Assembly: GCA_020342235.1 (NCBI GenBank) | Contig: CP073212.1 | Location: 1,054,001-1,118,000 of the forward strand | DNA from: Saccharomycopsis phalli | Taxonomy: Eukaryota; Ascomycota; Saccharomycetes; Ascoideales; Saccharomycopsidaceae | Direction of reading: 5' to 3' | DNA: 64,000 bases | Part shown: piece after piece, positions 12,449-53,732 of the stretch | Position numbering within the stretch: the stretch's first letter is position 1 | Layout of the letters: every line of letters starts with the position of its first letter | Made by a program: the position numbers and the translations under genes | The notes under the pieces: model-generated | Told to the model about the DNA's origin: nothing | Database searches by the model: none | Seen by the model: the letters and a program-made list of their open reading frames with translations, nothing else

Positions 12449-12820
12449 TACGGTAAAAGTCTTAATAATAATAATAGTATTTATTTTTGTATTCGAAGGG
12501 CGGCCTGGCAGGTAGTCCCTCCGGGAGCGAGACTCCATAGCTCCTTCTGAGTCATCTCTCTTCAACGGCTCCTAAAAGATCAAGTCGAAAGTTTTTATCC
12601 CCATTCAAAGGGTTTTCTCTCGACTCCAAAATTAGCGACGCCGTCCTTAGTTTTTTAGATGGCGAAATATCAATTTCACCCAGGGAAATCCTGAGGCAGT
12701 ATTGCTGATTAAAACCCACATCAACTCTCAAATAGCCGTCTAGGATTAAACTTCAATTTGAGCAGCTGTATTGTTGATACATAGTACTTGTAGTGGTTGT
12801 GTAAGAAACCTGGTCGGCAA
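12449..12820 (-). mobile_element. SINE-like repeat family, copy A (rearranged)
   Basis: Starts with an AATAATAATAATAG tract followed by TATTTATTTTTGTATTC, as in copy C at 38.5 kb, and ends with TTGTGTAAGAAACCTGGTC, again as in copy C. The middle (about 12570-12700) contains the family core, with GTCGAAAGTTTTTATCC and the hairpin CGCCGTCC...GATGGCG. That core is inverted relative to the ends when compared with copies B and C, so this copy is composite or internally inverted. No coding potential; the frame at 12368-12565 is fortuitous. Similarity was judged by eye. Confidence 0.6.
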
Positions 12821-13382
12821 AACACTTTTCCAAGCCACTTTTCCTAGCCACTTTTCCAAGCGTGTGTGTATCAGCTGGTGTGGGCTTGCTCCGATGCATG
12901 TTACAGGCTCATGAGCCAATATGACTAGGGCAAAAACGAGTGGTTGGTTCGGTACAGCAACATCTGTCTATGGTTCCTGTATCAGATGCCGTGGCGAGTC
13001 TAGGTGAATTTCAAACTTGCTATGCAAATAGCTAAGGACAGTTGTATATGATTGATGAAACGAACGAGTCTTATGCCTCTTTGATACTTTACTTTTGGAA
13101 GCATAATTCCTGGATAACCACATGTCACAATGTTTTGAGTGGATTCATTTTCTGGTGGCATAATCATTCCAATGGTACCCAGAAATCAATTAATTGATAT
13201 TTCAGTTCTCTTTGCCAATGAGAAAATATCCATCCAAGGTGTTCCGAAGCAAATCATTCGCTGCCGTAGCAATTTGAAACTGACATTAGCTTTGAGGTAG
13301 CGATGTGAGGCATGATAAATATCCATGTCAAACCACCAGATCACTACAAATATTGATCATTCTTATCCACTTTTATTCATTA

Positions 13383-14654
13383 ATGAACACTTTAGCCATC
13401 TTTCACATTCTTTTAGCCATGCTCTTTATGGAGCTTGGCCTTGCGTCTCCGGTCGATGCTGCCCTTGTCGCTCGGAACAAGGGCACCATCGACCGGTTGC
13501 TCATATCTGGGAGTATTTTTTTTTTTTTTAATAATAATAATATTTATTTAAGGCTATAGCTATACTAGGCTCCCAGGGGAGATTGATACTTCGCCGTCTA
13601 TGACTAAGGACGGTGCTGCTATATAGTCGTCGAAAGAAAACTCTGCAACAGAGATAAAAAACTTTCGACCAGAGCTTGTAAATATGTAAGGTAATGAGCA
13701 TTGGAGGGGCAATGAGTTTTTCGCCTAGATCTTTGGAGGTAACTTTAGCTACCCCCTCCCCAAGGTACTAACTCGGTAGCCCTCCTAACGATATCTGGGA
13801 GTATGACAGGTGTAAATGCTCCGTATGTCAGACGGAAACAGGGCGGTTCGAATTTTTGTCTCGATGAACATACCAGAGACGTGGTTCTTGCGTACACATA
13901 TCTACCAAGAACCGAAAGTATCTTTATTCAAGGATTAGGACTGTCTCCATATGAGACGCTTCCTATTTCACCATTGATTTTTCACCGCCGAAACATTAAG
14001 GAGTTATTTTTGCCACAATCTACAGTATGGGATGCTGGCTGGATCCAGACATTTTGGGCAGATCCTATGAAAACTCCAGAGGAGGAGACTATCCGCCATA
14101 TTGATAATTTCACATCATTGAAACTGATATGCTATAACACAAATGGCATTTGGGATAATAATGAAACGTACCAGAAGTTGTTCGAATTAAAGGGGGCAAT
14201 GACCAATGATCAGATTAACAATTTTGAAAAGTTATATATCAAAGGAGAAAATGACGGGACTCTAAGACGAGCTGCCACTGACTACATGACAGCCATCGAT
14301 AACCTCTTTCGTGTCGATGGGCATCTTCGTGATGAAGTTCGATTCCGAAAGACGTTTAAAGTTGGCAATGTTTACAGCAAGACAGCCTTTAAGAATCGTT
14401 TGGAAAATTTTAAAAATGCAGAAGTTGTTGGAAAAATTACTAAAGGAGAGAACAATATGCGTCTTTGTAAGATTGAGCAGGTATTGGCTCATTACAGCCT
14501 CCAAAGTATTGGTCCAATCATGAAAGAAGGACATACTCTCGAGGACCGGGAGGCTCCAATAAATAAGCAATATGAAGATGAGTGTATAGCCACTTTTGGT
14601 TCATTGGATGACATGAATTACTGTTTCCCAGACAGGAATGAAAAATGCAACTGA
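13383..14654 (+). pseudogene. Gene for an unknown secreted protein, interrupted by a SINE-like insertion
   Basis: The left part starts at an ATG (13383) and encodes a typical signal peptide: MNTLAIFHILLAMLF followed by GLASPVDA. The right part (13803-14654) is an open frame of 283 codons that is Asn/Lys/Glu-rich, with several cysteines and no family I recognise. Copy B of the SINE-like family (13517-13790) lies between them, flanked by a perfect 14-bp direct repeat, so the two parts look like one former gene split by a recent insertion. The region is more AT-rich than the housekeeping genes. Whether either part is still expressed cannot be told from sequence. Function unknown. Confidence 0.55.
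13517..13790 (-). mobile_element. SINE-like repeat family, copy B, with 14-bp target-site duplication
   Basis: On the + strand it begins with a run of twelve T, then AATAATAATAATATTTATTT, meaning that read on the minus strand it ends in (ATT)n and poly-A, as retroposed RNAs do. ATATCTGGGAGTAT occurs immediately before (13503-13516) and after (13791-13804) as a perfect direct repeat. The body carries two hairpins: CGCCGTC...GACGGTG, and TCGAAAG...CTTTCGA around 13632-13671. The 274-bp length, tail and duplication fit a non-LTR-mobilised SINE or a 5'-truncated LINE end. It has no open frame of its own. The perfect duplication suggests it is young. Confidence 0.8.
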
Positions 14655-14705
14655 GGCTTGAATTTAGCGGGTTTAAATAAAGCGTAACGTGGAAATAAAT
14701 AGTAT

Positions 14706-14790
14706 CAACCAGATCCTAAAGGAACAAAACAAATAATTAAATAGTTTATAGTTCATCATAATACTATGTATAGTCAGACCAAAATATAAG
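14706..14790 (+). repeat. Dispersed repeat, inverted partner at 51.3 kb
   Basis: CTAAAGGAACAAAACAAA, then AATTAAATAGTTTATAGTT and ATACTATGT, then AAGCTACGACA, match the reverse complement of about 51310-51395 with scattered differences over some 84 bp. Downstream, both regions also contain a similar GGTTA.TTAACCACGACA near-palindrome. Possibly fragments of one mobile element; family unknown. Confidence 0.5.
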
Positions 14791-15310
14791 CTACGACAAC
14801 ATAACATTCTCCAATAGCATTGGAAAAATACCTCATTCTAATCAATGCCGTAGATCCGTGACATTTCACTGACGTTGACATTGCTTAAGCAAACTATTCT
14901 GTAGCGGTTATTTAACCACGACAGATGGGATAATCAAACTTGACAAGGGCAATCAGTCTTACATAATCGCTAGAAGCACCAGTTCAACAACACAACTGCT
15001 CAAATTGAAGTTTTTAATTCCAGGTAGCTGTATGAGGACTGGTAAAGAGTTTTCTTTTACAGGTCACTTGTTACACGTGAGTTAAGTATGAACTACAACG
15101 GGTATAATGACCAGGTTTATACATAAGGATCCTGGCAGCTATACTAAGACTTTATGTCGACGTCAATATCCTCGTCCATTGGGTGTGACATCGTTACAAA
15201 CTTATACTCAGATATTTAGTAAGTTATAGATGAGTTTTGTTCCTTTTATAATTGAATAATCGGAACGGTAGTGATGATTGAATTGATATTCTTAGATGCT
15301 TTTCCACTAC

Positions 15311-15393
15311 GGAAATATCTCTCCTTTTATAGTAGAAATATCTCTCCTTTATAGTAGAAATATCTCTCCTTTTATAGTGGAAATATCCTCTCA
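15311..15393. repeat. 24-25-bp tandem array, three to four units
   Basis: Units of GAAATATCTCTCCTTTTATA followed by GTA, with single-base slips between copies. No function seen. Confidence 0.85.
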
Positions 15394-16017
15394 TAAGTCT
15401 ATACACCCATGATTTTCACATCCCTTTATAACTGCATTAACTGCATTTTGTGCAGTTTGTGAGTTCATTCTAGCGGAGACCCAGCCTCCGTTATGGCGAA
15501 CAGATCTCTGTTATTGGTGAATTACTTGTGGTGTTCAACCTCAACACTTTAGCAGCTTGGCACCTAATAACAAGCTCCTCATTGAAAGCAAAAAATAAGC
15601 AAAGACGAGTTGAACTACACCAGTTGTTCGATGCCAGAATAAAACAATTGATTCCAAGGTTTGTAGAGTCATTCCAGCATTGTGGAAATTAAAACCATTT
15701 ATCCAAAGTTTTTTAGAGTCATTAAAACGTGGAAAATTCAACTGGTGAAATCTGCAACGCTTTTATTATACCTAGGTTGTATTTAACCATTATAATATCT
15801 ATGCCCAGCTTGTATGAAATATACAGATTAGCTATTGAAATTCTAAACGTACTATTTGACCTCTCAAGCCTTGTACAGAACAGTAATAATAACTAGGCTA
15901 CAAGTTGGTAAGTAGCTAATCCATATTCGCTTGACTATTCAAAGAGTGACTATTTATACTTGAAACAAACCTTGATATAGACAAGCCGCATTTGCCAGAA
16001 ACTGTACATCACTATAT

Positions 16018-17256
16018 CTAGACACCATTCTTGGCCTCTTCCGCCTTTCGCTCCTTCAACTGGGCAGCAGCCTTTTCCCGCTCAGCTCGGGTCCGGCGGC
16101 GTTCTTTCTTTCCCACATCCTTCTGAGCCTCGGCAACCAACTCCTCAAAGATTCGAGCCTCTTCGTTCTCATCATCTGTGCGAGTAGTCGCCTTGAATAT
16201 ACTTCCCAACTTCACCAAGGCCTCGGCGCGCTCAACACGCTTCTCCACGGAAACAGTCTTGTCATACAAAACCGCATCGCACACCCCCCTGACCGTGCTC
16301 TGGATCTCAAACTTCGACCCGTGCCAAGCTGCTGCCAACACTTTGCCCATGAGCAACTTCTCCATGGCAGCAATTTCCTCTGGGGTCGGCTCGGGAATGC
16401 CTTCCTCCTTTTCTTGCATCTTTGAGAACTCCTCCATCGTTGACTGGGCATCCAAGGCCGAGCTGATTGTCTTAAACGTGTCGCTAACCACGCCCGCCTT
16501 CTCCTTCACTGAGCCAAAGAAGGACCCGATTCCAAGGAACGTGCGTTGCGACTTGAGGAAAATGTGGCCCTTGGACACATAGATGTCGCCAATCGTGTGC
16601 AAGATATCCAATCCAAACGACTCGATCTTTAACCCATCGGCCTCTGCCTTGTACTTCTCCTCAAACGCATGGAGGCAGTTTGCATCCTTGGGCGACTCGG
16701 TCCACACAGACAACTTCAACACAAGGTTCTCCACCAATTTGCGCCGCGTCTCCTCCTTCTTCTTCCTGCTCTCGGCCTCGTACTTCTCCAACTCCTCTCG
16801 CTGCTTTGCCGTCAACTTGTCCTTGCCCTTTTTCTCTGCCTCCTCTTTGATCGCCTCCACCCGCTTCAAGTCCTCAATCGCAAGCAACTCGTCGGGACTG
16901 TCTGTCGTCGCAAGCTCCGCCTGTTTCGCCAAGTCTTTGAGCAACGTCAATTCGCCAATATAATCCTGGAACGCCTCGCCCCCAAAGATCATGGCAAAAT
17001 ACTCAGTGGCGTCCTCAAACCCTTGCTCAGGAACCGCTTGCTCCTTGCCATACTTGTCATACTTTTGTCGTAGTTCATCGCTAGATAAAACCTGGTACGC
17101 CTCTGTGATGCTCTGAAACTTTTCCTTGGCCTCAGCCGCAGGATTCTTGTCTGGATGATACTTTAAGGATAACCGCCGGTACGCTCTCTTGATCTGCTGC
17201 GGAGTGGAGGTCACATCCACCTCCAAGATCTGATAATAGCTGTCATCGACCACCAT
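16018..17256 (-). CDS. CAJ1: DnaJ/Hsp40 co-chaperone with DNAJ-X domain (Caj1/Djp1-like)
   Basis: An N-terminal J domain (residues 6-68) has the HPD tripeptide at 34-36, which stimulates Hsp70 ATPase. It runs directly into GKEQAVPEQGFEDATEYFAMIFGGEAF, the conserved junction of Caj1/Djp1-type proteins, followed by the helical DNAJ-X region and a charged coiled-coil and Lys/Arg/Glu-rich tail. The 412-residue length fits. The first in-frame ATG is at 17256. In S. cerevisiae, Djp1 acts in peroxisomal and mitochondrial protein import and Caj1 at membranes; which of the two this matches functionally is not settled, but sequence around the J-domain exit is closest to Caj1. A CACGTG lies about 30 bp upstream (17285-17290). 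Confidence 0.88.
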   Translation of the reverse strand: MVVDDSYYQILEVDVTSTPQQIKRAYRRLSLKYHPDKNPAAEAKEKFQSITEAYQVLSSDELRQKYDKYGKEQAVPEQGFEDATEYFAMIFGGEAFQDYIGELTLLKDLAKQAELATTDSPDELLAIEDLKRVEAIKEEAEKKGKDKLTAKQREELEKYEAESRKKKEETRRKLVENLVLKLSVWTESPKDANCLHAFEEKYKAEADGLKIESFGLDILHTIGDIYVSKGHIFLKSQRTFLGIGSFFGSVKEKAGVVSDTFKTISSALDAQSTMEEFSKMQEKEEGIPEPTPEEIAAMEKLLMGKVLAAAWHGSKFEIQSTVRGVCDAVLYDKTVSVEKRVERAEALVKLGSIFKATTRTDDENEEARIFEELVAEAQKDVGKKERRRTRAEREKAAAQLKERKAEEAKNGV

Positions 17257-17681
17257 GTTACTGTGATGCAACAAATTCCCGCTTATATGGTATCACGTGA
17301 AATACACGGGGCGCGCGTGTGACTAACGGGCTGTAGTCGGGTGTGCAACCCGTATATTTAACCAGGAAGTTTGTGTGGTGTAAAGTTGCTTGGATGGTTT
17401 GGAAAATGTAATTTAGGGACAAGTGCCATTTATAATGTGTTTGTGTGCATAGGCGCGTTTTACTGGGAGTCACATGGTTTTCATGTAGTCATGTGGAATA
17501 AGGGAGCTAGTTGATGTATTTTCCACGTTGATTTTTGGTTGGTTGACTGAATAGATCTGGTTAGTAGGATATGTAGTATTTTACCATCTTTACCAGGATA
17601 CAGAATCTCCCACGATCATCTTGTTGTCATGGATTTGCAACGAGTACCCGTAACACACTATTAATAGTCTGATTGTATGCT

Positions 17682-17822
17682 AGGCAAATATTGGTCATTT
17701 CATCAGCTCGTATCCCAGTCATTATGTTACATATACTGAATAGTACACTGGTATTGGTATTGTCTATGTTTTGGCAAACCTCTGAAGTAGAGAGGTGGAC
17801 TTTGACTCAGTTATCACAGTTT
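17682..17822 (+). repeat. Dispersed TATCCTAGT-core repeat, copy 3
   Basis: AGGCAAATATTGGTCATTTCA, then CAGCTCGTATCCCAGT and ATGTTACA, matches the family core. Further right, TATTGTCTA and GACTTTGACTCAGTTATCACA repeat the extended part of copy 1, with extra sequence between. Confidence 0.6.
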
Positions 17823-17913
17823 TGATTAGGTACTGTGCAATATTCACTTTGGGTATGTATACGGAGTCTACCATCTGGATCTACTATCTGGGTCTGCTAT
17901 ACTAGTAAGCATT

Positions 17914-17958
17914 TCATAATCCACTACACTAAATCCATAATCCACTACACTAAATCCA
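17914..17958. repeat. 22-bp tandem duplication
   Basis: Two adjacent copies of a unit containing ATAATCCACTACACTAAATC. Confidence 0.8.
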
Positions 17959-18664
17959 TTATTCTATAGACCATTGTATCAATCCCCCAGCCATTTGTTG
18001 AAATTTGTCTAAACCATAAACCATCTCGCTCAGACAATTGGACATTCCATCTTTAGCATCAAGGTGAAATTCCCGCAATTTTCAGTTAATCAATGAGTAC
18101 ACTATCAAATTTTGACATACAGTACACCAAATCTTGACATATAGTACACTAAATCTTGAAAGTCTAGTAGGAATAACCACATTTCAAACATTACCACAAT
18201 TCCAATTGGCAAGACATGATTACTCCAACGCTCCATCACTCTGATATTCAGAAAATGGTTTCAGAGCACGAGGAATACAAGACCGTCTACAAGAAGTTGC
18301 ATGGTCTTTTTTACCATACACAACATTTAACTTTCCAAGCTGACTCTTGCCGCAGAGTAATACATTGAAAGTCTGTCAACTATAATCGGTTGTAGCTTAC
18401 CAGAACGCTGGCACGATGCTTCCTTACTGAGATCCTGTGACTAGGCTTGTATGTGGTACTAGTATTATAGAGCAAGTTATATCTAATGACAGTGACAGGC
18501 TATTCTCTTCCATAATGACAGACTATTCTCACAACAGCAGTAAACTAAACTAAAAGAAATCATCTTCTCTATACCTAGACAGAGTTATCTCAATACGTTC
18601 CATTCCAGCAAGATAGCACTTGACAACGGAGGAGCCATGTTTACTGGCATCTGAGAAAATATAT

Positions 18665-18834
18665 GATTTCAATACAATTGGTGACCAATCGATTTCAATA
18701 CAATTGGTGACCAATCGATTTCAACAAAATTGGTGGCTAATCGATTTCAACACAAATTGGGTGTATATTACCATCTATTTCAATACAATTGGTGTACAAT
18801 CCATTTCAACAAAATTGGTGTACAATCCATTTCA
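18665..18834. repeat. 27-30-bp minisatellite downstream of the uS5m gene
   Basis: About six units of the form ATTTCAACAAAATTGGTG followed by TACAATCC or ACCAATCG. It sits just beyond the stop of the minus-strand ribosomal-protein gene and is followed by a short CACAACTGCCCAATCAACAT duplication. Confidence 0.88.
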
Positions 18835-18905
18835 CAACTGCCCAATCAACATCACAACTGCCCAATAAACTACAATCCCCGCACACTATATTCAGTCTAT
18901 TTACA

Positions 18906-19883
18906 TCATGTACTGTAATACGTCTTTCTCAAGTCCACCACCTTCTTGCCACGGGCCAAAGCCAACTCATGCAAGCTCTTTTGCTGCGTCAATGCCTCCA
19001 ACACACCCTTGGAAATGTTCATACCGTTTCTGCTCTTGTACACCTTTGCACTCAAGTCCTTGATCCCCGCAAGCTGACAAATTTCGTAAATGTGATGATT
19101 CACCCGCAAACCAAATCCCGGAGGAGAAGGCCGCAAAAACAACTTCACTCCATGGTACCGGTGGTCGATATTACCCAAAATCGTGCGGTTCTCCATGCGA
19201 GGAACATGCTGGAGATTCTTCATGGCATTCCACGTTGCCTGTTGAAGCGACACCGAGACTCCGGCACGTGACCGACCTTCTCCAAGGCCGACCATACCAT
19301 TTTTGTCGCCAACCACTACTAAAGAGTAGAATTTTGGAATCTTACCCTTTCTTGTCTGTTGGGACGTCCGTTTGAGCACAAGCACACTGCGTTCCAACTT
19401 CAGAAGGTACTCGGCCGAAAGCCCAGTGAGACTCTCCAACTGTTCGAACATCACCCGGTTGGCAGATTTGCCATCCTCTTGGATCCGCGCGCCCTCGGGG
19501 ATATCCGGCTCTTCTAGTTCTTGGAACGGCCGGGAAAAGTCTGTCTGCTCGACCTTCAAGTGGTCCCAGAACCGATCACGCTTGCTGAAATCGTGCAAAT
19601 ATGGAGGCGAGAATTTGCCAGAAAGCCGCCGTTTTGACCAGTGCTTCTCGTCAATTGCCGTCTCGGCCGCTTTGATCGATTCAATGAGCTCGGGCGAGTA
19701 GAATTTGGCAAGCTGTTTGAGGTGTTCGCTGTGGACATTTTCTGGCGGAGTTGGGCTTGTGGTGTCGCAACAGCGGGTCAGAAGCGAAAACTGTCGCGAG
19801 ACGCCTGCAAAACGGCTAGATAGAGGGACAAAAGGACCGGCAAACGGTCTTTTCGTGAGACTAGCCACTGCTCGGCACTTCAT
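18906..19883 (-). CDS. MRPS5: Mitochondrial small-subunit ribosomal protein uS5m
   Basis: 325 residues from the first in-frame ATG (19883). A basic, hydroxylated N-terminus (MKCRAVASLTKRPFAGPF) suits a mitochondrial presequence. The C-terminal half carries the ribosomal S5 signature: SVLVLKRTSQQTRKGKIPKFYSLVVVGDKNGMVGLGEG is the S5 N-terminal double-stranded RNA-binding-like fold, and the later GFGLRVNHHIYEICQLAGIKDLSAKVYKS is the S5 C-terminal domain. It belongs to the mitoribosome small subunit. The open frame extends 27 bases further, but only from a TTG. Confidence 0.93.
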   Translation of the reverse strand: MKCRAVASLTKRPFAGPFVPLSSRFAGVSRQFSLLTRCCDTTSPTPPENVHSEHLKQLAKFYSPELIESIKAAETAIDEKHWSKRRLSGKFSPPYLHDFSKRDRFWDHLKVEQTDFSRPFQELEEPDIPEGARIQEDGKSANRVMFEQLESLTGLSAEYLLKLERSVLVLKRTSQQTRKGKIPKFYSLVVVGDKNGMVGLGEGRSRAGVSVSLQQATWNAMKNLQHVPRMENRTILGNIDHRYHGVKLFLRPSPPGFGLRVNHHIYEICQLAGIKDLSAKVYKSRNGMNISKGVLEALTQQKSLHELALARGKKVVDLRKTYYST

Positions 19884-20696
19884 GTTGTGTTGCACTCTGA
19901 AAAATTTCAATGAAAAGTGAACTGGTTATGGGCGATGGGCGGGTATCGGATTGGTACGTTTGAGTGATGATTTATAATAATATTTATGGGTAACGATTAA
20001 TATATCAAAGGTTGTAGTTTGCAAGTGGAAATGATTTAGAACTGGTTTTGCCATTTGGTGATGTGATAATGGCGGTATTTATCCATTTGTGAGTTGAATC
20101 TCGCAATAATCTCTAATCACATCATTCACATTAAGCTCATTCAATAAGCTCATTCAATACTCATTCAATATAACAAACCTTTTATTCCAGCAAACCTTTT
20201 AATTCAATAAACCTCACAATTGAACCACTATATACATGTCCAATGCTTTTAGACTAAATGAACTCACACTGGACCACCAAGTGTCCAAGCACAAAGGCCT
20301 GGTAATTGCCTTGTCAAAAATATAACCACCAGGAATATAAAAGCCGAGGTGTTTAAATCCAAGGACCAGCCTTTATTTCATGAGCAAGTATAGTAAATAC
20401 CCAACTCTAACAGGAGCAACATCAGTGACACTGATGTCTTAGAATATACATCTTAGAATATTCATCTTAGAATATACGTCAACGTGAATGCCTTATAATA
20501 TACACTACACCTTAATATACTCTCCACCTTATTATACTCTACACCTTATTATACGTAAACGCCTTATAATATACTTCTACACTATATAATACAACTAGGC
20601 CAACTATGGATACAAAAGCATACTCCAGAGGGAATCATGCTCAGTGTGTTTGCTGCTCCTTTACAACTTCTTCTTCTCAGCTTCTTCTCAGCTTCC
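19884..20696. other. Intergenic region with degenerate repeats
   Basis: Contains presumed promoter sequence of the uS5m gene and, at about 20430-20595, a degenerate array of CTTAGAATATACAT and CACCTTATTATACTCTA units just past the GPC1 stop. No gene seen. Confidence 0.45.
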
Positions 20697-38537: not shown

Positions 38538-38800
38538 GGTGTAATAGTAATAGTAATAATAATAATAGTAATAATAATAATATTTATTTTTGTATTCAGC
38601 TATATATCGTCTCTGGTATACGGTTATTTGACAAATATATCGTCACTCAGGAACATCAGGCACCATTGCTGTTGAAGAAAACCCTTTGTCAACCCTCACC
38701 TGGTTGCTTGGGATTAAAAACTTCAATGGGGGCAGTTATATTGTTGGTACTTAGTGCTTGTATTGATTGTGTAAGAAGCCTGGTCACTCTTGTTGTCGAA
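38538..38800 (-). mobile_element. SINE-like repeat family, copy C
   Basis: Begins on the + strand with a (TAA)n/(TAG)n tract, then TATTTATTTTTGTATTC as in copy A. It contains TTGAAGAAAACCC...GGATTAAAAACTTCAA, corresponding to the TCGAAAG/CTTTCGA hairpin of copy B. It ends TTGTGTAAGAAGCCTGGTC as in copy A. No clear target-site duplication, so it is probably older than copy B. The open frame across it (38501-38812) is fortuitous. Confidence 0.65.
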
Positions 38801-38912
38801 TGTGACCACTGAATCTCATCATGTGTTGGAGGAATCATATTCCAACACGTTCTGGTAGAACTCAAGGAGCTTGTGGACGGATTTTGTAATAGTAATACGG
38901 TTACCAGTTGAC

Positions 38913-39005
38913 ATGGCTAAATGTCATGACTAAATTGGCATGACTAAATTGGCAGGGGCTAAGCTGTCATTAACCAAATTGACATGGCCTAAATTAGCAT
39001 GACTA
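38913..39005. repeat. Degenerate 17-bp array
   Basis: Five or so units related to CATGACTAAATTGG, with insertions between them. Confidence 0.65.
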
Positions 39006-43712: not shown

Positions 43713-44601
43713 TGGGTGAGGTGTGATTCATGGGTATCCATGGGCAAAGGTATTCATTGGAAAAGTCTGATTAATGGTCATGGATAATTCAACATTTTTC
43801 AACATGTTCTTGGTGATTAACAATATATAAAACCGGATTCAAGCAGTATTTATATCCCACACAACTGCATTTCTTTGCCACACACATATTCTGTCAGACT
43901 GGCTTTGATTTGGCATGGAATGCGTCCGCATTCAAATTGTCGAGCAAATTTTTGCAAACCTTCGAGGACAAGGCTACACTAAATTGGTGAATATTTATAG
44001 ATCCGATAAACCACGGCAATTCTACAACAAGTACTACGATATATCCCCGGACCAATACCGACTACAACCCTATAAAACAAGCACCAAAAGACTCCCAGAT
44101 CTCCTCCAAACTCCATAATACACCGTCACATCTACAATTTTTCGACTCTTTACTGAATGACCAATCTGACCATCTTGTTTCATCTTCACTGGCATCAACC
44201 TCAGCCTCATGGCAGCCGCATGCTTGTACCTCAGCATACATTATCTCATGATATAACTGCTCCATGGCATTTCATCAAGACAATATATTTTACACAAACA
44301 CATGGCCCCAATATCACACTTGCTAATAGCACACCATCTATACCCACAAATGTTGCTCGTTTTTTTTTGCTACTACACCTTTCTGACCGTATTTCTTCCC
44401 CTCTGTATTTGGGCCATTCCCCATCTGCAGATCTAAGGCATCGATCGTGCCAATGCCATGAGGATCACTCACATTCCCCAATCGGCGGACTTTAGTGCTA
44501 TCAATGCCATTTGGATCGCCCAACAGTGTCTCGAGGATTCATATAACTACGTTTGGCACCGTTTGATTTTTTTTTTTCTCAACGTGCATGTCAATGATAC
44601 A
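43713..44601. other. Intergenic region, no clear gene
   Basis: A short frame (43915-44118) follows a TATATAA (43824-43830) but has no recognisable product. Another ATG in frame with the permease occurs at 44458. A T10 tract lies at about 44568-44579. Confidence 0.4.
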
Positions 44602-46494
44602 ATGAGACGACAGTTACAACTGGAGAAAATGTTTATCATTGCTGAAGACGAAGATAATATTCCTCCACGAACACGTTCTGGGGCTCATGGCAGCATTGAT
44701 TCAAGAGAAACCAACATAACCGTGGCATTTTCTCCTCTGATCTTGGCCTCGTTCGAGGCAGACAATCTTTGCAAATCAAAGTGCTCCTTCTATCATGAGT
44801 CTCTGACAAACTCAGCGACCCTCTACGAGGATTCCGAGTCCAGCACTCTTTCCAATGTGCCAGAAGTACCCGTGGATAACCCGCTTATCCAGGGTTTACG
44901 ATCACACCATGTTGCCTTTATCACACTCTGCTCAGTGTTTGGTGCTGGGCTTCTCATATCCTCGGGGATATCCCTTCTGATTGCAGGCCCATTGCCACTT
45001 CTCGTTGGCTACTTTCTAACCGGTCTTCTTGCGTACCAAGTAGTCACTGCCTTGGCCGATATGACGACATATCTTCCACTTCCAGACACTTATTGCGGCT
45101 TTGCAACACGGTTCGTGGATCCTGCGCTTGGATTCTGCGTCAGCTACACCTACTTGGGCACTTTTCTTCTCTTTGGCCCGAACCAGATCACTGCAGCCAC
45201 ATTGACCATCTCATACTGGGTGAATCCAAACGTGATTAGCCCTGCAGTGTGGGTCTTGGTGTTCATGGTGATAATTGGCATTGTCAACTACTGTAAGATC
45301 ACAAAATACGCATATCTCGTTGACGCCTGCCTCATTAGCAAACTTGTCATTTATTCTATACTTGCAGTCACGCTCTTGTCACTAATTGCTGGTGCTGGAA
45401 ACCCAGGCCATCGGATCGGGTTCAAGTACTGGAAATCACCAGGGGCAGTCAGAGATTACCCAGGGCTCCGTGGGTTTGGTGGGAAGCTTGTCAGCTTTAT
45501 TCTTTCCGCCAACAAGAGCGTGTGGAGCTATGTTGGTATCGAGACGTTTGCTGTGCCGGCAATAGAGACGGTAAACCCGCGCCGGACCATTCCACGCGCA
45601 AAGAAAATCATATTCTGGATTCTCTTCCCGACATACCTCATTATGGTTCTCCTAATTGGTCTTTCTGTGGCCTCCAACGACCCAGCACTAGAGCAATCGA
45701 CCCTGGGGAATATCACTGGCAACGCACGGGCCAGTGTCGTGTTTGTGGCGCTCTTCAATGCCTCGCTAGGGTCAATGGGAAACTTTGTCAATGCAGCTCT
45801 TCTTATCTTCATTTTCTCCGCGACAAACACCAGCTTTTACCTCAGCACGCGCATTCTTTACGGGCTTGCTGCCGGAGGAATTGCTCCCAAGTGCTTTACG
45901 AAAACCACAAAGAGCGGGGTGCCAATCTACGCGTTTGCCCTAGCTGGCTGCTTCAACTTCATTGCATTCATCAACATCAAGGGAAAATCAGTCGAGACGT
46001 ACCGCTATTTTGTCGATGCCACCTCGCTTTTTGCCCTCCTAAACTGGTCATGCATTCTCTTCACCCACATCCGCTTCCTCCAGGCTTTCAAGGTTCAGAA
46101 AGTTGTCCACGAGTTTTACCGTTATGTGCCCGACTCGACAACGTCGATTATCCCCTCTGTAATAGCTTTAGCGGGCGCATTGTTCCTCATTATCACCATG
46201 AACCTCACCACATACGTCAACTATGCAACGACAAAGACATTCAACGTCAGCGAGTTTCTCTCGGGGATGATTGCCATTCCGTTGTATGTGATCCTCTACT
46301 TGGGCTTCAAATTCTACCACAAAACGTCGTTTGTCGACCTCGGCGACGCTGACTTGTTCTTCTATAGAGACATTGTGGATTCGCGAGAAAGAGCGTTTCT
46401 CCGTCACCAGGACGAGCACACAAATGAGGTGGCAAAGTTTACTCTATGGGAGAGATTGAAGAACCGTCTAAGCACGGTTTCTGTCAGATGCTAA
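44602..46494 (+). CDS. Amino acid permease (APC/YAT family)
   Basis: 630 residues with about 12 hydrophobic segments. The opening LRSHHVAFITLCSVFGAGLLISSG matches the permease signature usually written LKxRHVxMIxLGGxIGTGLF. ETFAVPAIETVNPRRTIPRAKKIIFWILFPTY is the conserved stretch linking the central helices, and FIFSATNTSFYLSTRILYGLAAGGIAPKCFTKTTKSGVPIYA matches TM8-9. The second half of the TM1 glycine motif is altered, so the substrate range may be unusual. The start at 44602 gives a cytosolic N-terminus of about 100 residues; an in-frame ATG at 44458 would add 48 more. Plasma membrane location is inferred. Specificity is unknown. Confidence 0.85.
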   Translation: MRRQLQLEKMFIIAEDEDNIPPRTRSGAHGSIDSRETNITVAFSPLILASFEADNLCKSKCSFYHESLTNSATLYEDSESSTLSNVPEVPVDNPLIQGLRSHHVAFITLCSVFGAGLLISSGISLLIAGPLPLLVGYFLTGLLAYQVVTALADMTTYLPLPDTYCGFATRFVDPALGFCVSYTYLGTFLLFGPNQITAATLTISYWVNPNVISPAVWVLVFMVIIGIVNYCKITKYAYLVDACLISKLVIYSILAVTLLSLIAGAGNPGHRIGFKYWKSPGAVRDYPGLRGFGGKLVSFILSANKSVWSYVGIETFAVPAIETVNPRRTIPRAKKIIFWILFPTYLIMVLLIGLSVASNDPALEQSTLGNITGNARASVVFVALFNASLGSMGNFVNAALLIFIFSATNTSFYLSTRILYGLAAGGIAPKCFTKTTKSGVPIYAFALAGCFNFIAFINIKGKSVETYRYFVDATSLFALLNWSCILFTHIRFLQAFKVQKVVHEFYRYVPDSTTSIIPSVIALAGALFLIITMNLTTYVNYATTKTFNVSEFLSGMIAIPLYVILYLGFKFYHKTSFVDLGDADLFFYRDIVDSRERAFLRHQDEHTNEVAKFTLWERLKNRLSTVSVRC

Positions 46495-46558
46495 TGGCTA
46501 CATGGGGTGGTACTTTTGGTAATGTTATGTTAATTTCTTGTCGACTGTAGACTCTAGG

Positions 46559-46609
46559 GGTGATTGTAGGTGGGGTGATTGTAGGAGGAGTGATTGTAGG
46601 AGGAGTGGA
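46559..46609. repeat. 17-bp tandem array downstream of the permease
   Basis: Three units of GTGATTGTAGGAGGA with two variable bases each, about 65 bp past the stop. Confidence 0.85.
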
Positions 46610-46806
46610 TTGTTGAGAGTTTGTTTCAATGGTTAAATGTTGTGGTGTAGTTTCTCCAACCAGAATGCATTTTGGGTATAGAGGCATGGGGTGATGTAGA
46701 GATGAGCAGTATAGTTAACTTATTGATTATTACTTGATTTGTGATTTTATAGAGTAGAAATGGGTTGATTGGTGAATTGTTGGTTAAACCGAGATTACCA
46801 TATGCT

Positions 46807-46862
46807 GTCAATATACAGTCAAGATACAGTCGAGATACAGTCGAGATACAGTCGAGATACTG
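46807..46862. repeat. 12-bp tandem array
   Basis: About five units of AGATACAGTCGA (first one ATATACAGTCAA). Confidence 0.88.
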
Positions 46863-47137
46863 CCAATAATCTATATCAATCTTTAATCAAGAAGTCTATT
46901 AGGTCTCAACTTACAATCCATAATACTATTCAAACCTCTTTTTCCAACACTCTATGCAGTACTAGGCACCTCCATGGAATATGCAACACACTTGCAAGTA
47001 TTTCCAGCCAGAAAATAGCCCATAAACTCGGGGCATTGTCAATGTGTATTGAACAAGATTTCTCCACATGAGATTCAGCAGTTGGTAACAAGGGCACCAG
47101 GCTTGCCTAACCTCAAGTACGAATCGATAAAACTGTT

Positions 47138-47237
47138 TAAATATACAGTCAAATAAGTGTACCCAAATATACAGTCAGATAACCGTCTCAAATATACAGT
47201 CAAATAAGTGTGCCCAAACATACAGTCAAATAACCGC
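47138..47237. repeat. Array of ATATACAGTCAAATAA units
   Basis: Four units of AAATATACAGTCAAATAA alternating with GTGTACCC and CCGTCTC linkers, so a higher-order unit of about 50 bp occurs twice. ATACAGTC is shared with the array 300 bp to the left, suggesting common ancestry. Confidence 0.82.
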
Positions 47238-47379
47238 AAATGACAATACAACGAATAGAAAAAAGCCATCACTATGCATCATGTAATATAGTAACTAAGA
47301 TACATGTTGATAAGATAGTTAGAACATATTTTCTTGACCTATTTAGGGAGCGAGATTAGCTATATAAGTGGTGACGGAG

Positions 47380-47640
47380 TCAGGAAAGGAGAGCCGTTAG
47401 CGTACGGCACTGCTGCCTTAGTATTGCTTCGACTGGTCAAAGAGATGTGTTTAGGATAATTATCTAATACTAATCGTGTGAGTTTGAGTCTTGTATCAGA
47501 AAGAGCTAAGGTAGGTACAGACTTTATTACACAACAAATCAAGTCAAATTTTCATCCCAAAAAGGCATTCTCCCGACTCAAATTAACGGCGCTGTCTTTA
47601 GCTTTTAGACGATGAAATATAAATCTCACCCCCCGAGGAA
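47380..47640 (+). mobile_element. SINE-like repeat family, copy D
   Basis: The core at about 47545-47640 (AAGTCAAATTTTCATCCC, CCCGACTCAAATTAACGG, GCTGTCTTTAGC, TGAAATATAAATCTCACC) matches the core of copy A and the reverse complement of copies B and E. CCTACTATAGCTACACAA matches the reverse complement of GGCTATAGCTATACTAGG in copy B. The left part matches the others only at TTATTACACAACAAAT. The right end lacks an obvious A-rich tail. It sits just upstream of PEX1. Confidence 0.55.
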
Positions 47641-47762
47641 CCTACTATAGCTACACAAGTAAATCAACACAACATCTACAAGGACCATCATGTCATTTGG
47701 CATGGGCTTGCGTGCGCATAGCAACTGTCTATACTCCGCAAGTTAGCCGATTACCTTGCATC

Positions 47763-50732
47763 ATGGATTCTACCAAGGCCTGGGTGGCATTTTCCGGGCT
47801 TTCGACGAACTTAATCAATCTTCCAAACGATCTAGCATCACTATTATATAGTGCCAACATCAATGTGCAGTCTGTGGTTGTGGAACTCCAGTGGAAGAAG
47901 GGTAAAACCACCCATTATGGCTACTGTGGGTGGTCGGGAATGGTGAGCCTGAACTCGAGCCGGCCGACCCTTGAAATCGAGCCGCTATTTGCCAACACAC
48001 TCGGCCTTTCGGAAGGCACCGGTGTTACCGTGAATTTGAAATTCGACGCGCCAGAAGCCTTGAAAGTTCACCTTGAGCCTGCCTCGGCTCTGGACTGGGA
48101 ATTGGTGGGGTTGCACGCGCAATTGCTCGAGGATCGGCTTCTAAATCAGACGCGGGCTGTCCGGGTCGGCCAGGACTTGCTTGTGTACCCCACAAGTACC
48201 GTCAGTGCGCGGCTTCGCGTCGTCAAGATCGAGCCGTCTCCAGGAAACTCCACGGGCTATAGCCGGCTCTCTGAGGTTTGTGAGGTCGTGGTTGCGCCCA
48301 AAACCCGCCGCCCAGCCTCCTCGAGCGGGTCGACCCGGTCGAAAAGCAACAGGCGCTCTGTGGAGCTGCGGATCATGTCCAGTGTGTGTGTGCCGCACCT
48401 GGGCTTCCAGGCACACGACCCGGCAAAATTCGAGGTCTACAGCACGGAAATCCCCTGGGAATACGCCCGGGTGTCTTTGCTTGGCGGCCAGAAACATGTG
48501 GTTGCCCGTATCGTGTTGGAAGGCATTCCACAATACCTTGGACTCAGTCCGTTGGTCGCACAGACGTTGGATGTGAGCAACCGGACCGGAGAATGGCTTG
48601 TGGTAGAGCCTTCTGGTGCGCTGTTGCCTGATTCTCCACGCTCATTGACGTTTTCTCCGTACGTCGTCGAGTCTCCCGACAAAAAAGTGCTCCGTGGGCA
48701 GGACTCGGTTCGGCAAGAAACCGCAGCTAAAGTGCATAGCCACTTGGCTGATATTGGATATTTTGCCTCCAACGTGCTTACTGATCGCTGCAACGTGCCA
48801 GTTATCCCCGATTTGTTGCCCTATGGAGGCGAAATCCATCTTCGAGGCCCAGGGTGGTTTCTCAGCGACTCGAGCGAGTACTCGGTGACCTTGGGCGAGG
48901 ACGTGGTCAAGCCACAGGAGGTTTTGGGCAGAGTGCGGCGGAACGAGATCGAGGACTTGCCGTTGGATGACGGCCCAGTAGTTGGCTATGAGAAGTTGGT
49001 CGAGGATATCTTTAGCCAGTTGCTGCGGCACGTCAATGGAATCTTGGTCCATGGGCCGTCAGGGTCGGGCAAGACTCGAATAGTGAGGTCTGTGGCTGGC
49101 AAAATGTATCGTGACACCACATACAAGGTCATGGTGATCGATATGGAAGACCACTTGGGCGAGGCTGGCAACTTCGAGGCATTGAAGAAGACGTTTGCAC
49201 AGGTATTTCTACGGCTTGCCAAGCACATGCGGGTGGTTCTTGTGCTTGAGAACGTGCACCTTGTGTCGCACAAGGAACAGGAGCAGCATGACAACACCGT
49301 CACCAACAGCTTCACCGAGTATTTCTCGCAGAACTACCAGCGGCTTGTTGACAACGGCTACGACATCAAGATCGTTTACACAGCTCTCTCCAAGGACAGT
49401 CTCAACAAGACGCTTGTCAGCAACCCTGCATTGGTGAGCCACACCTACAAAATCGCAGCACCAACAAAGATCCAGCGCCGCCAGTTGGTCGAGCACTTCC
49501 TCTCCAAGCGCAACTTGGTTGCTGGGCCGCTCGACGACTTGTGGAATGACACCGAGGGGTTTCTACCGTGTGACTTGCAACTGATTGTGGAACAGGCGTA
49601 CCATGAGCTGCTCATTGCCAGCAGCAGGACCGTTGACATGTCGCACTTTTCCAAGGCCCTTGACGGGTTTGTCTCGTCGGGATTGCGCAACGTCCAGTTG
49701 CAACAGTCGGATGTCAAGTGGCTGGATATTGGCGGCTTGAAACGGGCAAAGGAGATTCTTCTTGAGACCTTGGAGTGGCCCACAAAGTACGCGCCGATCT
49801 TTGCAAACTGCCCGTTGCGTCTTCGCTCAGGCATCTTGTTGTATGGGTATCCGGGCTGCGGCAAGACGCTTCTTGCCCTGGCAGTGTCCTCGCAATGCGG
49901 ACTCAACTTCATCTCCATCAAAGGTCCAGAGATCCTCAACAAGTACATCGGCGCCTCTGAGCAGTCGGTAAGAGACCTTTTTGAACGTGCCCAAGCCGCA
50001 AAGCCCTGCGTGTTGTTCTTTGATGAGTTCGACTCCATCGCCCCAAAACGTGGCCATGACTCCACCGGCGTCACAGACCGTGTGGTGAACCAGATGCTCA
50101 CACAAATGGACGGCGCAGAAGGCTTGGACGGCGTCTATGTCTTGGCTGCAACCTCTCGTCCTGATTTGATCGACTCGGCTCTTCTCCGGCCTGGCCGACT
50201 CGATAAAAGCGTCATTTGCGACCTCCCCGACTTTGAAAACCGCCACGATATTCTCCTCACAGTGGCAAGCAAAATGGCCCTTGAGCAGGACATTGACTTG
50301 GCGGAAATCACTCGTGAAACCGACGGATTCTCTGGCGCAGATTTACAGGCCCTTGGCTATAACGCGTACTTGAACGCCGTGCACCGGAGATTGAAGCAGG
50401 ATAGTGACCTGGAAAAGACTCCAGAAAAGGTTTCCGTCGAGTTTTTTCAGCTTGACAGGGACTTGTCTCTGGTGGAACGATCCGCATTGCACAAGAAAAT
50501 TGAAGCCATCCTCGACACTCCGGCAGAGAAACGGCCAGACAATGCCGATTACAAAGTCGTAGTCACGTTGGCTGATTTCCAGCAAGCGTTGCGCGATACC
50601 AGCCCTAGTATCTCCATCTCTGAGCGGACAAAGCTCAAGAAGATATACAGCGAGTTTGTCGCCGATCGGGATGGCAATATGCCAAACGGATCTGCAAGTA
50701 ACCAGATTGGAGGCAGGACTACTTTGATGTAG
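47763..50732 (+). CDS. PEX1: Peroxisomal AAA ATPase Pex1
   Basis: 989 residues from the first in-frame ATG (47763). With Pex6, Pex1 extracts ubiquitinated Pex5 from the peroxisome membrane so the receptor can be reused. The N-terminal substrate-binding double-psi-barrel region is followed by two AAA rings. D1 has GPSGSGKT (about 431-438), but its Walker B is LVLENVH, without the usual Asp-Glu, as expected for the weak D1 of Pex1. D2 has GYPGCGKT (about 695-702), LFFDEFDSIAPKRGHDSTGVTDRVVNQ and LAATSRPDLIDSALLRPGRLDK, almost invariant in Pex1. Several CTG codons fall at positions where other Pex1 proteins have Ser or another polar residue (for example 49722 and 49878). SINE-like copy D ends about 120 bp upstream. 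Confidence 0.97.
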   Translation: MDSTKAWVAFSGLSTNLINLPNDLASLLYSANINVQSVVVELQWKKGKTTHYGYCGWSGMVSLNSSRPTLEIEPLFANTLGLSEGTGVTVNLKFDAPEALKVHLEPASALDWELVGLHAQLLEDRLLNQTRAVRVGQDLLVYPTSTVSARLRVVKIEPSPGNSTGYSRLSEVCEVVVAPKTRRPASSSGSTRSKSNRRSVELRIMSSVCVPHLGFQAHDPAKFEVYSTEIPWEYARVSLLGGQKHVVARIVLEGIPQYLGLSPLVAQTLDVSNRTGEWLVVEPSGALLPDSPRSLTFSPYVVESPDKKVLRGQDSVRQETAAKVHSHLADIGYFASNVLTDRCNVPVIPDLLPYGGEIHLRGPGWFLSDSSEYSVTLGEDVVKPQEVLGRVRRNEIEDLPLDDGPVVGYEKLVEDIFSQLLRHVNGILVHGPSGSGKTRIVRSVAGKMYRDTTYKVMVIDMEDHLGEAGNFEALKKTFAQVFLRLAKHMRVVLVLENVHLVSHKEQEQHDNTVTNSFTEYFSQNYQRLVDNGYDIKIVYTALSKDSLNKTLVSNPALVSHTYKIAAPTKIQRRQLVEHFLSKRNLVAGPLDDLWNDTEGFLPCDLQLIVEQAYHELLIASSRTVDMSHFSKALDGFVSSGLRNVQLQQSDVKWLDIGGLKRAKEILLETLEWPTKYAPIFANCPLRLRSGILLYGYPGCGKTLLALAVSSQCGLNFISIKGPEILNKYIGASEQSVRDLFERAQAAKPCVLFFDEFDSIAPKRGHDSTGVTDRVVNQMLTQMDGAEGLDGVYVLAATSRPDLIDSALLRPGRLDKSVICDLPDFENRHDILLTVASKMALEQDIDLAEITRETDGFSGADLQALGYNAYLNAVHRRLKQDSDLEKTPEKVSVEFFQLDRDLSLVERSALHKKIEAILDTPAEKRPDNADYKVVVTLADFQQALRDTSPSISISERTKLKKIYSEFVADRDGNMPNGSASNQIGGRTTLM

Positions 50733-52634
50733 GTCGCCGATTACGATTAAATGGGTTGTTGTATTTTTTTTTGATGCTGTCTCATTAATCACTACAATCG
50801 GTAAACTAGCGTCAATTGGCAAAAATGGTTCACTATCAAACGTACCTAAGAGTATCCTTGTTACTTAATGAGTCTAGAGAAATTATGGGTTCTGATCATG
50901 TATCTTAAATATTTCAAGTGTGTTTCTATAATTCGATATATATAATTTATGGTGTCTAATTAGTATTTCATAGAGTGGTTTTCCATATATGACCTTATGT
51001 AATAACGTCCACCTCATTTCACTTTTCTAAACTTATAGCCCATGACTATCACTGTTTAACTGTGTTTTCTACTTTTTTTACAAGCATACGTGCACAAGGT
51101 ATATGCTGAGATTATGTGATTGTAGGTATGTGTACTACCATCTGGGAATGGCGAGGTGGAATATTCTCCAACTTTGAATCCTCTAGTAAAATATCAGTGG
51201 TTTGGTCATTTTAAACTCTCTTTGTAAAAATCTTATGCCATATCAACCAGATTTCAGAGAATTGTCTTGTTTTTTGATGCTTTAAAAGTGTCGTAGTTTA
51301 TAGGTGTACCCTGATTAGACATAGTATTACAGCAAACTATAAACTACTTAATTGTTTGTTTTGTTCCTTTAGTATTTGGATAACCGGAATGGGTTGTGCT
51401 AGATATAAATATCCAGCTGAATTGGTCTTGTGATCGTTATATTTGCAGCGAAATGTCGGCCTTCTTATAGAGAACGCCGATCCTCCTAAGAGGTTGTTGT
51501 CCTTTAATCAGATGGTGGTTACCATTGATTGGCGGACGCGCTACTGTATTCTGTGGCTGAGTTCGGTAAGCTACTCCTAACTCCTCCTTGAATACTGGAC
51601 CTATTCTGCCGTGGTTAGTTAACCACGACAAAAAGCTTGTAGGGTAAAAGCATACGAGGTATATTCAAACACAGCAGGACTGGCACACGGGCTATATAAA
51701 TAGCCAGTTGGCAATTAATCTGGCCAATGCAAATTTTTATATACTTGGTATATAGCTTGACTGTAACTAGAGCATTTTAATACAACTCTATTGCTCATTG
51801 TGTTTCTATAGAGACATTATGGCTTGATCTATCAATTTAACAAGTGACAAGCTCTCACAAAGTCGATAGGCAATCAATAAACAATTATGTGCTTTTTCTA
51901 TGACCCTAAACAAATGAATAAAATGCATTATTTGCATTCAATGTCACTACTTTGGTCTGTACTACCTTTTAATTCTTCACCAAAACCTCTATAGTGCTAT
52001 TAGAAGCACAATGTACCTGTAAGGAAAACTAATTACATTTAAAATAAATCTACACTACTAAATAAAGCTTAATCACAAACTCAAATGTCACTTCCTAACG
52101 TCATAAACAAAATAATCAGTCTTTTTAAAAAAAAGTCGAAATCATGAAGTAAATCATCCAATAGTAGAAATTTTGTGTGTAACGGGCAATCCTCGGTACC
52201 TCTTCTCTGGAGTATAGAAGTTACACGTGAATGGCACGTGAATGCATACAACATGCAATGAACAACAGGAAGAGGACCGGGCTTGTGGGTGAACAAGGTA
52301 TAACCCTTGTGAAGATACGTCTTTAGGTCACGTACATCAAGATACCGGTATACTCTTTCCTATTAAGGATAAAGAAGGTCTAGGCCGTCCTAAAAGGGAT
52401 TCTGACGCCTTTACCAGACGCAAGTCAATGGCACACCGCCACCATATAGAATAATATAAATAGCTGGGAAACCTGCTATGAAGCTAACTAACTTTGGGAG
52501 AAATTCCATCTTAGCTTATTATAACAAACATTATTGTAAGCTTCTTCTATCCCCTCGGAATAGTACTTTTATTGAGGTAATACTGAATATCCTGACGATT
52601 TGGGGATATTGAATATTACATTGTGCAAGCTCCG
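50733..52634. other. AT-rich gene-free region upstream of tRNA-Lys
   Basis: No protein gene. Contains the inverted partner of the 14.7-kb repeat (about 51310-51395), a near-palindrome GTGGTTAGTTAACCAC (51612-51627), and three TATAAATA-type tracts followed by similar CCAG/GCTGG sequences (about 51404, 51696, 52475), which could be promoter remnants of old mobile elements. Yeast elements often insert next to tRNA genes. I could not define element boundaries. Confidence 0.4.
51310..51395 (-). repeat. Dispersed repeat, inverted partner of 14.7 kb
   Basis: Its reverse complement reads CTAAAGGAACAAAACAAA, AATTAAGTAGTTTATAGTTT and ATACTATGT, then AAACTACGACA, in the same order and spacing as 14706-14790, with perhaps one difference in four or five bases. 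Confidence 0.5.
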
Positions 52635-52717
52635 TCCTTATTAGCTCAGTTGGTAGAGCGTTCGGCTTTTAGAAATAAGGAACCGAAATGTCCAGGGTTC
52701 GAGCCCCTGATGAGGAG
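52635..52717 (+). tRNA. tK(UUU): tRNA-Lys (anticodon UUU) with 10-nt intron
   Basis: A full cloverleaf can be drawn. The acceptor stem TCCTTAT pairs with ATGAGGA, G is the discriminator, the D-arm is GCTCAGTTGGTAGAGC, the anticodon stem TTCGG/CCGAA encloses CTTTTAA, and the T-arm is CAGGG TTCGAGC CCCTG. A 10-nt intron (GAAATAAGGA, 52672-52681) sits after position 37, the standard place for tRNA introns. Mature length is 73 nt. A short T-run (TATTTTTTG) follows as the RNA polymerase III terminator. Confidence 0.95.
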
Positions 52718-53732
52718 TATTTTTTGAGGATGATTACCATCAGTAATGGTAATACCAGTCAGAAATTTTTTTTTGTAGTAAATGCGCTTCCTATAACTCA
52801 TTGGAAGTCGAATTAACGGTAGCAAGTGGAATCACTGGGATTGGCATAAATTCCTCATTAAAAGCATATGCTACAAACTTAGCAAGTTCTCTTTTACTGG
52901 AAGCCAATACGTAGTAATCTTTCAACTCACTTATGGGATTGAGTTAAGAAATAGCTATATAATGTTTATTTGTGGTCTACGCTGGGTTTCAGGGAGGTTA
53001 ATATTTCACCGTGTAAAGACGTTGCTGCCAAAATGAACGTCAAGAGAAATTACACTCGATGTGTATAAAAGCTTTCGACTTGTTCTTCAGAGCAATCTGT
53101 AGATTCTAGAAGGATCTACGGGTATCGTCATAATTACCACCTGATTGTCAACCAGATCTTGTGTATAAGCAGCTATATTGTAAGAAAGTCTTCTCGTAAG
53201 GTACTCTCAGTTCATTAATCAATTTCCATTTAAACACAAGCCAGTAAGACCATCAAGAAATACACAAAAAGATTAAATAACTTGTATCCGGTATCATTGA
53301 CAGAATTCAATGGAATCTATTGGTAATATAAAGCACATGTTTATTTGGGTTTACATGGAAGCGTTAATCCACAGACACCCATCGATAATGACCAAGTCGT
53401 TAATAAAGTGGGTATATACCCAAACACTAAGTGAAATAACGATTATTATTGCCATTATTTAGCATAGTCAGGACGAGAATTGAAAGTGACTAGGTGAAAA
53501 AAACTCACGAGATAAGTATGCCAACTTCAAAAGTTTATCTTAGACATTACTGATTAATATCGCCAACGATTTATTCAACATTATCCTGCAAAAGCAAAAA
53601 CAATCGTAAAGCACTATACTCTAATAATACCACTGTACTTATACACTGGACAAGATTTCTCAGTACTCTACATACTATAGTACCATTTTATTATTATGCA
53701 TAGAGGATATATAAATTACATCTGGAATATCC
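52718..53732. other. Gene-free region between tRNA-Lys and RIP1
   Basis: Contains SINE-like copy E (52955-53195); otherwise AT-rich with nothing recognisable. Confidence 0.45.
52955..53195 (-). mobile_element. SINE-like repeat family, copy E
   Basis: ATAGCTATATAATG...TTTATTTG, then CTGGGTTTCAGGGAGGTTAA, TATTTCACCGTGTAAAGACG, TTGCTGCC, TATAAAAGCTTTCGACTT and CAGAGC follow the order of copy B on the + strand. Further right, GCAGCTATATTGTAAGAAAGTC resembles the TTGTGTAAGAAGCCTGGTC end of copies A and C. It is diverged and lacks a clear tail, so it is probably an old copy. About 235 bp from tRNA-Lys. Confidence 0.55.

Follow-up and report, generated by a model that had tools for sequence, protein, structure and literature searches.

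What kind of mobile element has left the short, hairpin-bearing repeats that are scattered through one 64-kb stretch of the genome of the budding yeast Saccharomycopsis phalli (assembly GCA_020342235.1, contig CP073212.1, positions 1,054,001 to 1,118,000, hereafter the window)? A first-pass annotation of this DNA had described five copies of a single new family resembling short interspersed nuclear elements (SINEs), with motifs in a fixed order and two hairpins kept despite sequence drift. The five stretches were compared with one another and with the window on both strands, and all results below refer to the window alone. The reading favoured here, to which we give a probability of about 0.7, is that they represent two groups of short, non-coding, non-autonomous budding-yeast retroposons, with a putative step in which a U-rich hairpin would act as an element for nuclear expression (ENE).

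The repeats themselves are real. Seven elements were found at six loci, in mixed orientation, and they fall into group H (c2, c1H, c4 and c5) and group J (c3, c1J and c6). They are non-coding, about 140–355 bp in size and dispersed over the 64 kb; among the frames that overlap c2 in the sense direction, none is longer than 79 codons, counted from stop to stop. Most pairs exceed dinucleotide shuffles within their group, with local-alignment z values of 2.8–12.2 for the six H pairs and 6.1–13.8 for the three J pairs, and the weakest H pair (c4/c5) scored 81.4 against 81.6 for the top of 100 shuffles. Between the groups there is no alignment over head or body. A single family with a fixed motif order was therefore rejected, since H and J are unalignable outside hairpin and tail; of the ordered set of motifs described for all five copies, the exact CTATAGCTATACTAGG and both hairpins as written occur in the 13.5-kb copy only, and the sixth locus (c6) had been missed. 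Same-sense comparisons of whole H and J elements score at about chance, with two exceptions, c1H/c3 (z 3.6) and c2/c3 (z 3.0, a value that includes the tails and does not exceed the best shuffle). Opposite-sense comparisons with the 12.4-kb locus reached z 4.5–12.3 because this locus is composite: the test stretch of c1H extended to 12760 and thus carried J sequence, while that of c1J contained the H module.

How these elements arrived is best read from c2, the best-preserved H copy, whose features are as follows.

13516–13790, minus strand: H copy c2, 275 bp, 5' end at 13790, with AAATAAATA(TTA)n and then 14 A
13529–13516, minus strand: A-run of c2, 14 A, the final A possibly part of the target-site duplication (TSD)
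13503–13516: left TSD of c2, ATATCTGGGAGTAT, its last base overlapping the T-run, which makes it 13 or 14 bp long
13791–13804: right TSD of c2, ATATCTGGGAGTAT, an exact duplicate of the left one
13629–13669, minus strand: U-loop hairpin of c2, with an 8-bp lower stem, loop TTTTTTAT/TTTT, a 5-bp upper stem and G-C pairs on both loop sides
13592–13615, minus strand: second hairpin of c2 (CGCCGTC..GACGGTG), partly formed in the c2 fold, also based on RNAalifold, coordinates taken from the sequence
13296–14654, plus strand: open reading frame (ORF) interrupted by c2, its pieces 13296–13559 and 13749–14654 in one frame, with a signal-like start

The minus strand of c2 finishes with ...TTAAATAAATATTATTATTATT and then fourteen A, and c2 is the only copy with poly(A) after (TTA)n. 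Because this run of A is bounded by an exact TSD, the (TAA)n/T-run that had been taken for one end of the family is in fact the 3' tail AAATAAATA(TTA)n read on the wrong strand. With ends fixed within 3 nt, a 13/13 duplication was reached in 0 of 3000 placements of the same spacing. The insertion together with one TSD amounts to 288 bases (96 × 3), so that the host ORF is not shifted, and stops lie within the element; the insertion looks recent, because the flanks of the ORF are still open. Neither piece of this ORF matched a family in Pfam. In summary, c2 is a genuine RNA-derived insertion in the style of a long interspersed nuclear element (LINE), and the retroposon reading as such is highly probable.

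The remaining elements are less complete. The covariance model R1 was built from four group H sequences (c1H, c4 and c5 among them), and the model R2 from the three of group J (c1J, c3 and c6).

12463–12816, minus strand: J copy c1J, with the (TTA)n tail on the left, R2 sequence
12451–12463 and 12815–12827: imperfect TSD of c1J, 10/13
12704–12757, minus strand: U-loop hairpin region of c1J, lower stem degraded
12496–~12690, plus strand: H module c1H, antisense inside c1J, without a visible 3' tail, R1 sequence
12584–12624, plus strand: U-loop hairpin of c1H
38541–38786, minus strand: J copy c3, long (TTA)n tail, no significant TSD, R2 sequence
38671–38727, minus strand: U-loop hairpin of c3
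14949–~15150, plus strand: J copy c6, the sixth locus, tail decayed or gone, 3' boundary uncertain, R2 sequence
15004–15060, plus strand: U-loop hairpin region of c6
~47530–47672, plus strand: H copy c4, lower stem mostly broken, R1 sequence
47543–47577, plus strand: U-loop hairpin of c4
~52955–53195, minus strand: H copy c5, degenerate AAATAAACATTAT tail, ends approximate, R1 sequence
53039–53079, minus strand: hairpin of c5

The tail AAATAAATA(TTA)n is present in c1J, c2 and c3, that is, at three of the six loci (12.46, 13.53 and 38.57 kb), and is degenerate at 52.96 kb. Ends resembling TTGTGTAAGAAGCCTGGTC are found in the 12.8-kb and 38.8-kb copies, with a diverged version at 14.95 kb. For c1J, an older copy than c2, the 10/13 duplication lies at the predicted ends and is matched by 19 of 3000 random placements. 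The similar part of the 47-kb copy is ~47530–47672 instead of 47380–47640 as first drawn, and c4, which begins at the U-loop hairpin, is therefore 5'-truncated. At the composite 12.4-kb locus a minus-strand J element encloses the plus-strand H module, and the match between c1 and c3 extends 10–15 nt into that module; the arrangement may be a nested insertion, or the module may be part of the J body.

The hairpin is drawn on one plan in both groups. On the sense strand, each of the seven elements allows a drawing in which a lower stem encloses a U-rich 5' loop, a capped upper stem and a U-rich 3' loop, but the quality of the structure varies among copies. The hairpin of c3 has a 6-bp stem, the loop TTTTTAAT/TTTT and an upper stem of CCC/GGG. 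Upper stems are unlike in sequence (CTCTG/CAGAG, CCC/GGG, ACAC/GTGT), with at least 3 bp paired in 6/7 when the loop ends are placed as we chose them. T makes up 63 of 79 loop positions and 393 of 1562 positions in the remaining element, a purely descriptive figure, since we chose the loops visually from copies that are not independent. The loop is bordered by G-C pairs on its two sides in three elements (c2, c1H and c3), and on the lower side in five of the seven. Three of the 12 cross-group hairpin alignments stand out, namely c1H/c3 (z 5.1, reached by 0/500 shuffles), c2/c6 (z 3.8) and c2/c3 (z 3.4), the last two reached by 1/500 each. The model R1 finds the c6 hairpin in the right register and orientation, at 11.3 bits (E 3) and in eighth place among 11 window-wide matches; it finds that of c3, at 6.5 bits (E 0.18), only in a search limited to 351 bases. 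With R2, the hairpin of c1H scores 7.4 bits (E 2.1, half window). None of these cross-group matches is significant alone. The strictest of four ENE-like descriptors, which demands G-C closing pairs, found five sites in the window, c2 and c3 among them, against a mean of 0.45 and a maximum of 3 in 40 shuffles.

From these features a working mechanism can be proposed. The RNA of the element would be a polyadenylated transcript of the RNA polymerase II (Pol II) type, which an L1-type LINE lying out of sight would copy by target-primed reverse transcription. The U-rich loop may grip the poly(A) tail of the very element that carries it, forming U-A-U triples as an ENE does, and the resulting triple helix would shield the short RNA from deadenylation, so that a primer-competent tail would stay available to the LINE reverse transcriptase. 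ENEs clamp poly(A) by a triple helix in other RNAs, those of transposons included. According to PMC12501189, the ENE of Evade in Arabidopsis forms a triplex with A20, requires its U-loops and the flanking G-C pairs, and increases RNA stability and transposition, and a survey cited there counted ~200 such motifs, mostly in plants and fungi. The elements described here share with Evade a hairpin with a U-rich internal loop, flanked by G-C pairs in the best copies and lying upstream of poly(A) in a mobile RNA. Unlike Evade, which is a long terminal repeat (LTR) element, the carrier is a short non-coding retroposon, the loop is shorter and asymmetric, and the triplex is a proposal by analogy. In c2, the best-preserved copy, a U-rich loop, G-C pairs next to it and an A-tail occur together. 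It is possible, though somewhat doubtful, that the hairpin works as an ENE. The wider idea is rather unlikely: that H and J, unlike in head and body and without a Pol III (RNA polymerase III) promoter, would each have kept the same tail-clamping hairpin of the ENE type as their main shared functional part, and would be small non-coding LINE parasites that protect their own poly(A).

A series of results weighs against the favoured reading, beginning with the duplications. Above-chance TSDs were sought in c3, c4, c5 and c6 and none was found, which leaves c2 alone convincing; in a looser scan with a 260-bp spacing, 2/500 random placements exceeded the score of 14 obtained for c2, an excess ascribed to the abundant tandem repeats. 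As for the hairpin, the other nine of the 12 cross-group comparisons are weak or null. Three of the five sites found by the strictest descriptor lie outside the family, and the looser descriptors returned 7, 17 and 30 sites for shuffle means of 1.8, 6.8 and 16.1. A 3' U-run of 4 and an asymmetric loop (8/4 in c2) are on the short side for ENEs. Folded in isolation, c2, c1H and c5 adopt the drawn hairpin as the minimum-energy structure and c4 a remnant of it, while c3, c6 and c1J pair otherwise; when the whole element is folded, c3 forms the hairpin and c1J does not. The antisense strand is at least equally stable in four of the seven (c1H, c4, c5 and c3), and much of the stem has been lost in c4 (1/6 lower-stem pairs) and c1J (4/7). 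Folding energies of whole elements are not unusual for c2 (z −1.5) and c3 (z +1.2), and somewhat low for c1 (z −2.6).

The covariation results belong to the same account. The suggestion that the hairpins were kept despite sequence drift gains weak support. Across the seven copies 76.9% of lower-stem cells are paired, compared with 72.8% in shuffles (24/500 reach the observed value) and at most 57.7% in slid versions, and 25/500 shuffles attain the observed covariation score. Changes on both sides occur at 2/8 pairs (C-G to U-A and A-U to G-C), for a shuffle mean of 1.7, and 298/500 shuffles reach two. In every one of the 500 shuffles the number of pair types is at least as high, and three pairs with both-sided changes appear once the partners are slid by +3. 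RNAalifold placed double changes at 2/16 pairs in H (covariation term 0.25) and 4/25 in J (0.01), and covariation brought no gain in energy. Covariation support for the stem, coming from few related sequences, is weak and leaves the earlier suggestion neither confirmed nor refuted.

The shared parts could also have another function. In one alternative, a stringent-type LINE reverse transcriptase would recognise the hairpin together with the (TTA)n end; both groups would have taken this site over from the 3' end of that LINE, and the U-rich loop would bind protein with no triplex involved. Hairpin and tail are indeed the parts that are similar between H and J, and simple-repeat tails are typical of stringent-type LINEs. 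Recognition of a stem-loop in the 3' untranslated region of such LINEs is mentioned in PMC5135761. However, the hairpin lies 76–241 nt from the 3' end (ends as used here), which is far for a site of this kind, the A-run of c2 suggests relaxed-type, poly(A)-primed copying, and this view offers no reason why either side of the loop should carry uridines. We consider this explanation rather improbable.

A second alternative takes H and J not as independent short elements but as remnants of two full-size LINE families, namely copies of their 3' untranslated ends that are truncated on the 5' side. Within group H the core is collinear among copies while the lengths upstream of the common 3' core differ, c4 starting at the hairpin itself, and PMC5014426 reports, for Ylli of Yarrowia, multiple copies truncated at the 5' end along with 104 fragments that range from 30 bp to 1 kb. 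This alternative does not sit well with group J, in which the 5' end is identical in c1J and c3 and c6 ends near the same point, the J heads being similar throughout (z 7.3–13.3). It also predicts that the H heads align like the core, but the heads are far weaker (c2/c1H z 2.9, c1H/c5 z 2.0, c2/c5 z −0.7) than the sequence downstream of them, where the three H comparisons of c2 reach z 6.1–11.3; the c5 head is about equally near the J heads (z 1.8–1.9 with c6 and c1J). Furthermore, no reverse transcriptase family was found in the 21 ORFs scanned out of the 32 in the window with at least 150 aa. Truncated LINE ends are an explanation that we regard as not very likely.

Retroposition of short non-autonomous elements, as favoured above, leaves the question of whether they are SINEs in the strict sense. 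A and B boxes were sought in all seven elements, where the best candidates carry 6–9 mismatches, as do random windows of the same DNA (mode 6–7), compared with 2–3 mismatches in the two tRNAs of the window. With curated cut-offs, Rfam recognised only these two tRNAs in the whole window and no small-RNA head; at E values up to 5 nothing relevant appeared in 12400–15200, c3, c4 and c5 being covered at gathering cut-offs only. Matches to PreQ1 and MIR5048 were far under threshold and were taken as chance. An origin as a Pol III SINE, with a head of tRNA or 7SL descent too decayed to be recognised, is compatible with the size, the tail, the TSD and the divergence of all copies except c2, but is very unlikely given that the boxes are ordinary for random windows, that Rfam has no relevant match and that internal U5–U6 runs (c2, c1H, c3 and c6) would tend to stop Pol III. 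As the searches turned up neither Pol III boxes nor a small-RNA head, the elements are not classed as SINEs. The earlier label of SINE-like is retained in the sense of short non-coding retroposons that are dispersed and LINE-dependent in type, for which c2, with its exact TSD and A-tail, is the one clear copy; SINE in the strict sense is not supported. H and J are SINE-like, probably Pol II-type, non-autonomous retroposons, and their likeness to SINEs consists in shortness and a presumed LINE dependence.

Zorro of Candida is reportedly an L1-clade LINE of budding yeasts with poly(A)-tailed insertions, and H and J differ from it in having no coding region. The same likeness and the same difference apply to Ylli, the L1-clade LINE of Yarrowia, for which TSDs were not identified according to PMC5014426, whereas the TSD of c2 is clear. 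SINEs derived from tRNA, 5S or 7SL RNA, such as AfuSINE of Aspergillus fumigatus (PMC5063351), have in common with H and J that they are short, non-coding and dispersed, with TSDs and an A-rich or simple-repeat tail. In contrast to these, H and J have no detected Pol III head or boxes, and share a U-loop hairpin instead.

Other candidates were considered and set aside. A DNA transposon or miniature inverted-repeat element, suggested by the inverted repeats at 12.6–15.0 kb, was rejected because these inversions arise from copies that lie on opposite strands, and because an A-tail and a 13–14-bp TSD are present in c2. Four further model matches were not counted as copies: 20225–20336 on the plus strand (R1, 15.7 bits, E 0.35), possibly a decayed H copy; 44277–44366 on the plus strand (R2, 15.4 bits, E 0.033 in half the window with filters off, gone with default filters), possibly a decayed J copy; and 3746–3832 on the minus strand and 53590–53661 on the plus strand (R2, 13.3 bits and E 0.19 each). 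Two exact patterns searched in viral contigs gave 0 matches.

Several neighbouring features were also recorded. An inverted pair at 14709–14798 and 51289–51379 (80% identity over 91 bp) lies outside the H and J copies. A dispersed repeat of about 60 bp resembling TGTAATATAGTAACTAGGATACGAGTTGG occurs in seven copies and both orientations, near 1877, 2631, 17731, 38488 and 55407 on the minus strand and near 15886 and 47279 on the plus strand, and these copies are possibly the starts of solo LTRs. Short tandem arrays are abundant within and outside genes (113 overlapping rows from Tandem Repeats Finder for the whole window). The tRNA at 52635–52717 on the plus strand has an apparent short intron and, by eye, the anticodon TTT (Lys); it was recognised by Rfam and not by ARAGORN in its bacterial setting. 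The window also encodes a Rieske protein, whose best matches among solved Rieske chains are entries attributed to Candida, Saccharomyces and Yarrowia, in keeping with a budding-yeast host. The ORF at 58765–59397 on the plus strand begins with a signal-like segment and repeats LKWHGIYKNQPIF four times, with KR after each repeat; it has a sub-threshold Pfam match only, and we take it to be a likely alpha-type mating pheromone precursor, by its resemblance to such precursors.

In the open-licence literature, no SINE family of a budding yeast was described in the titles and abstract openings among the matches listed, and PMC5014426 speculates on a LINE-driven spread of tRNA genes in Yarrowia. Likewise, among the matches listed for ENEs in fungi and yeast, no title or abstract opening dealt with an ENE in a yeast retroposon. 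If H and J are LINE-dependent and carry an ENE, they would offer a minimal natural system, in a possibly tractable host, for asking whether it is through protection of its tail that a non-coding RNA can become the template of a LINE.

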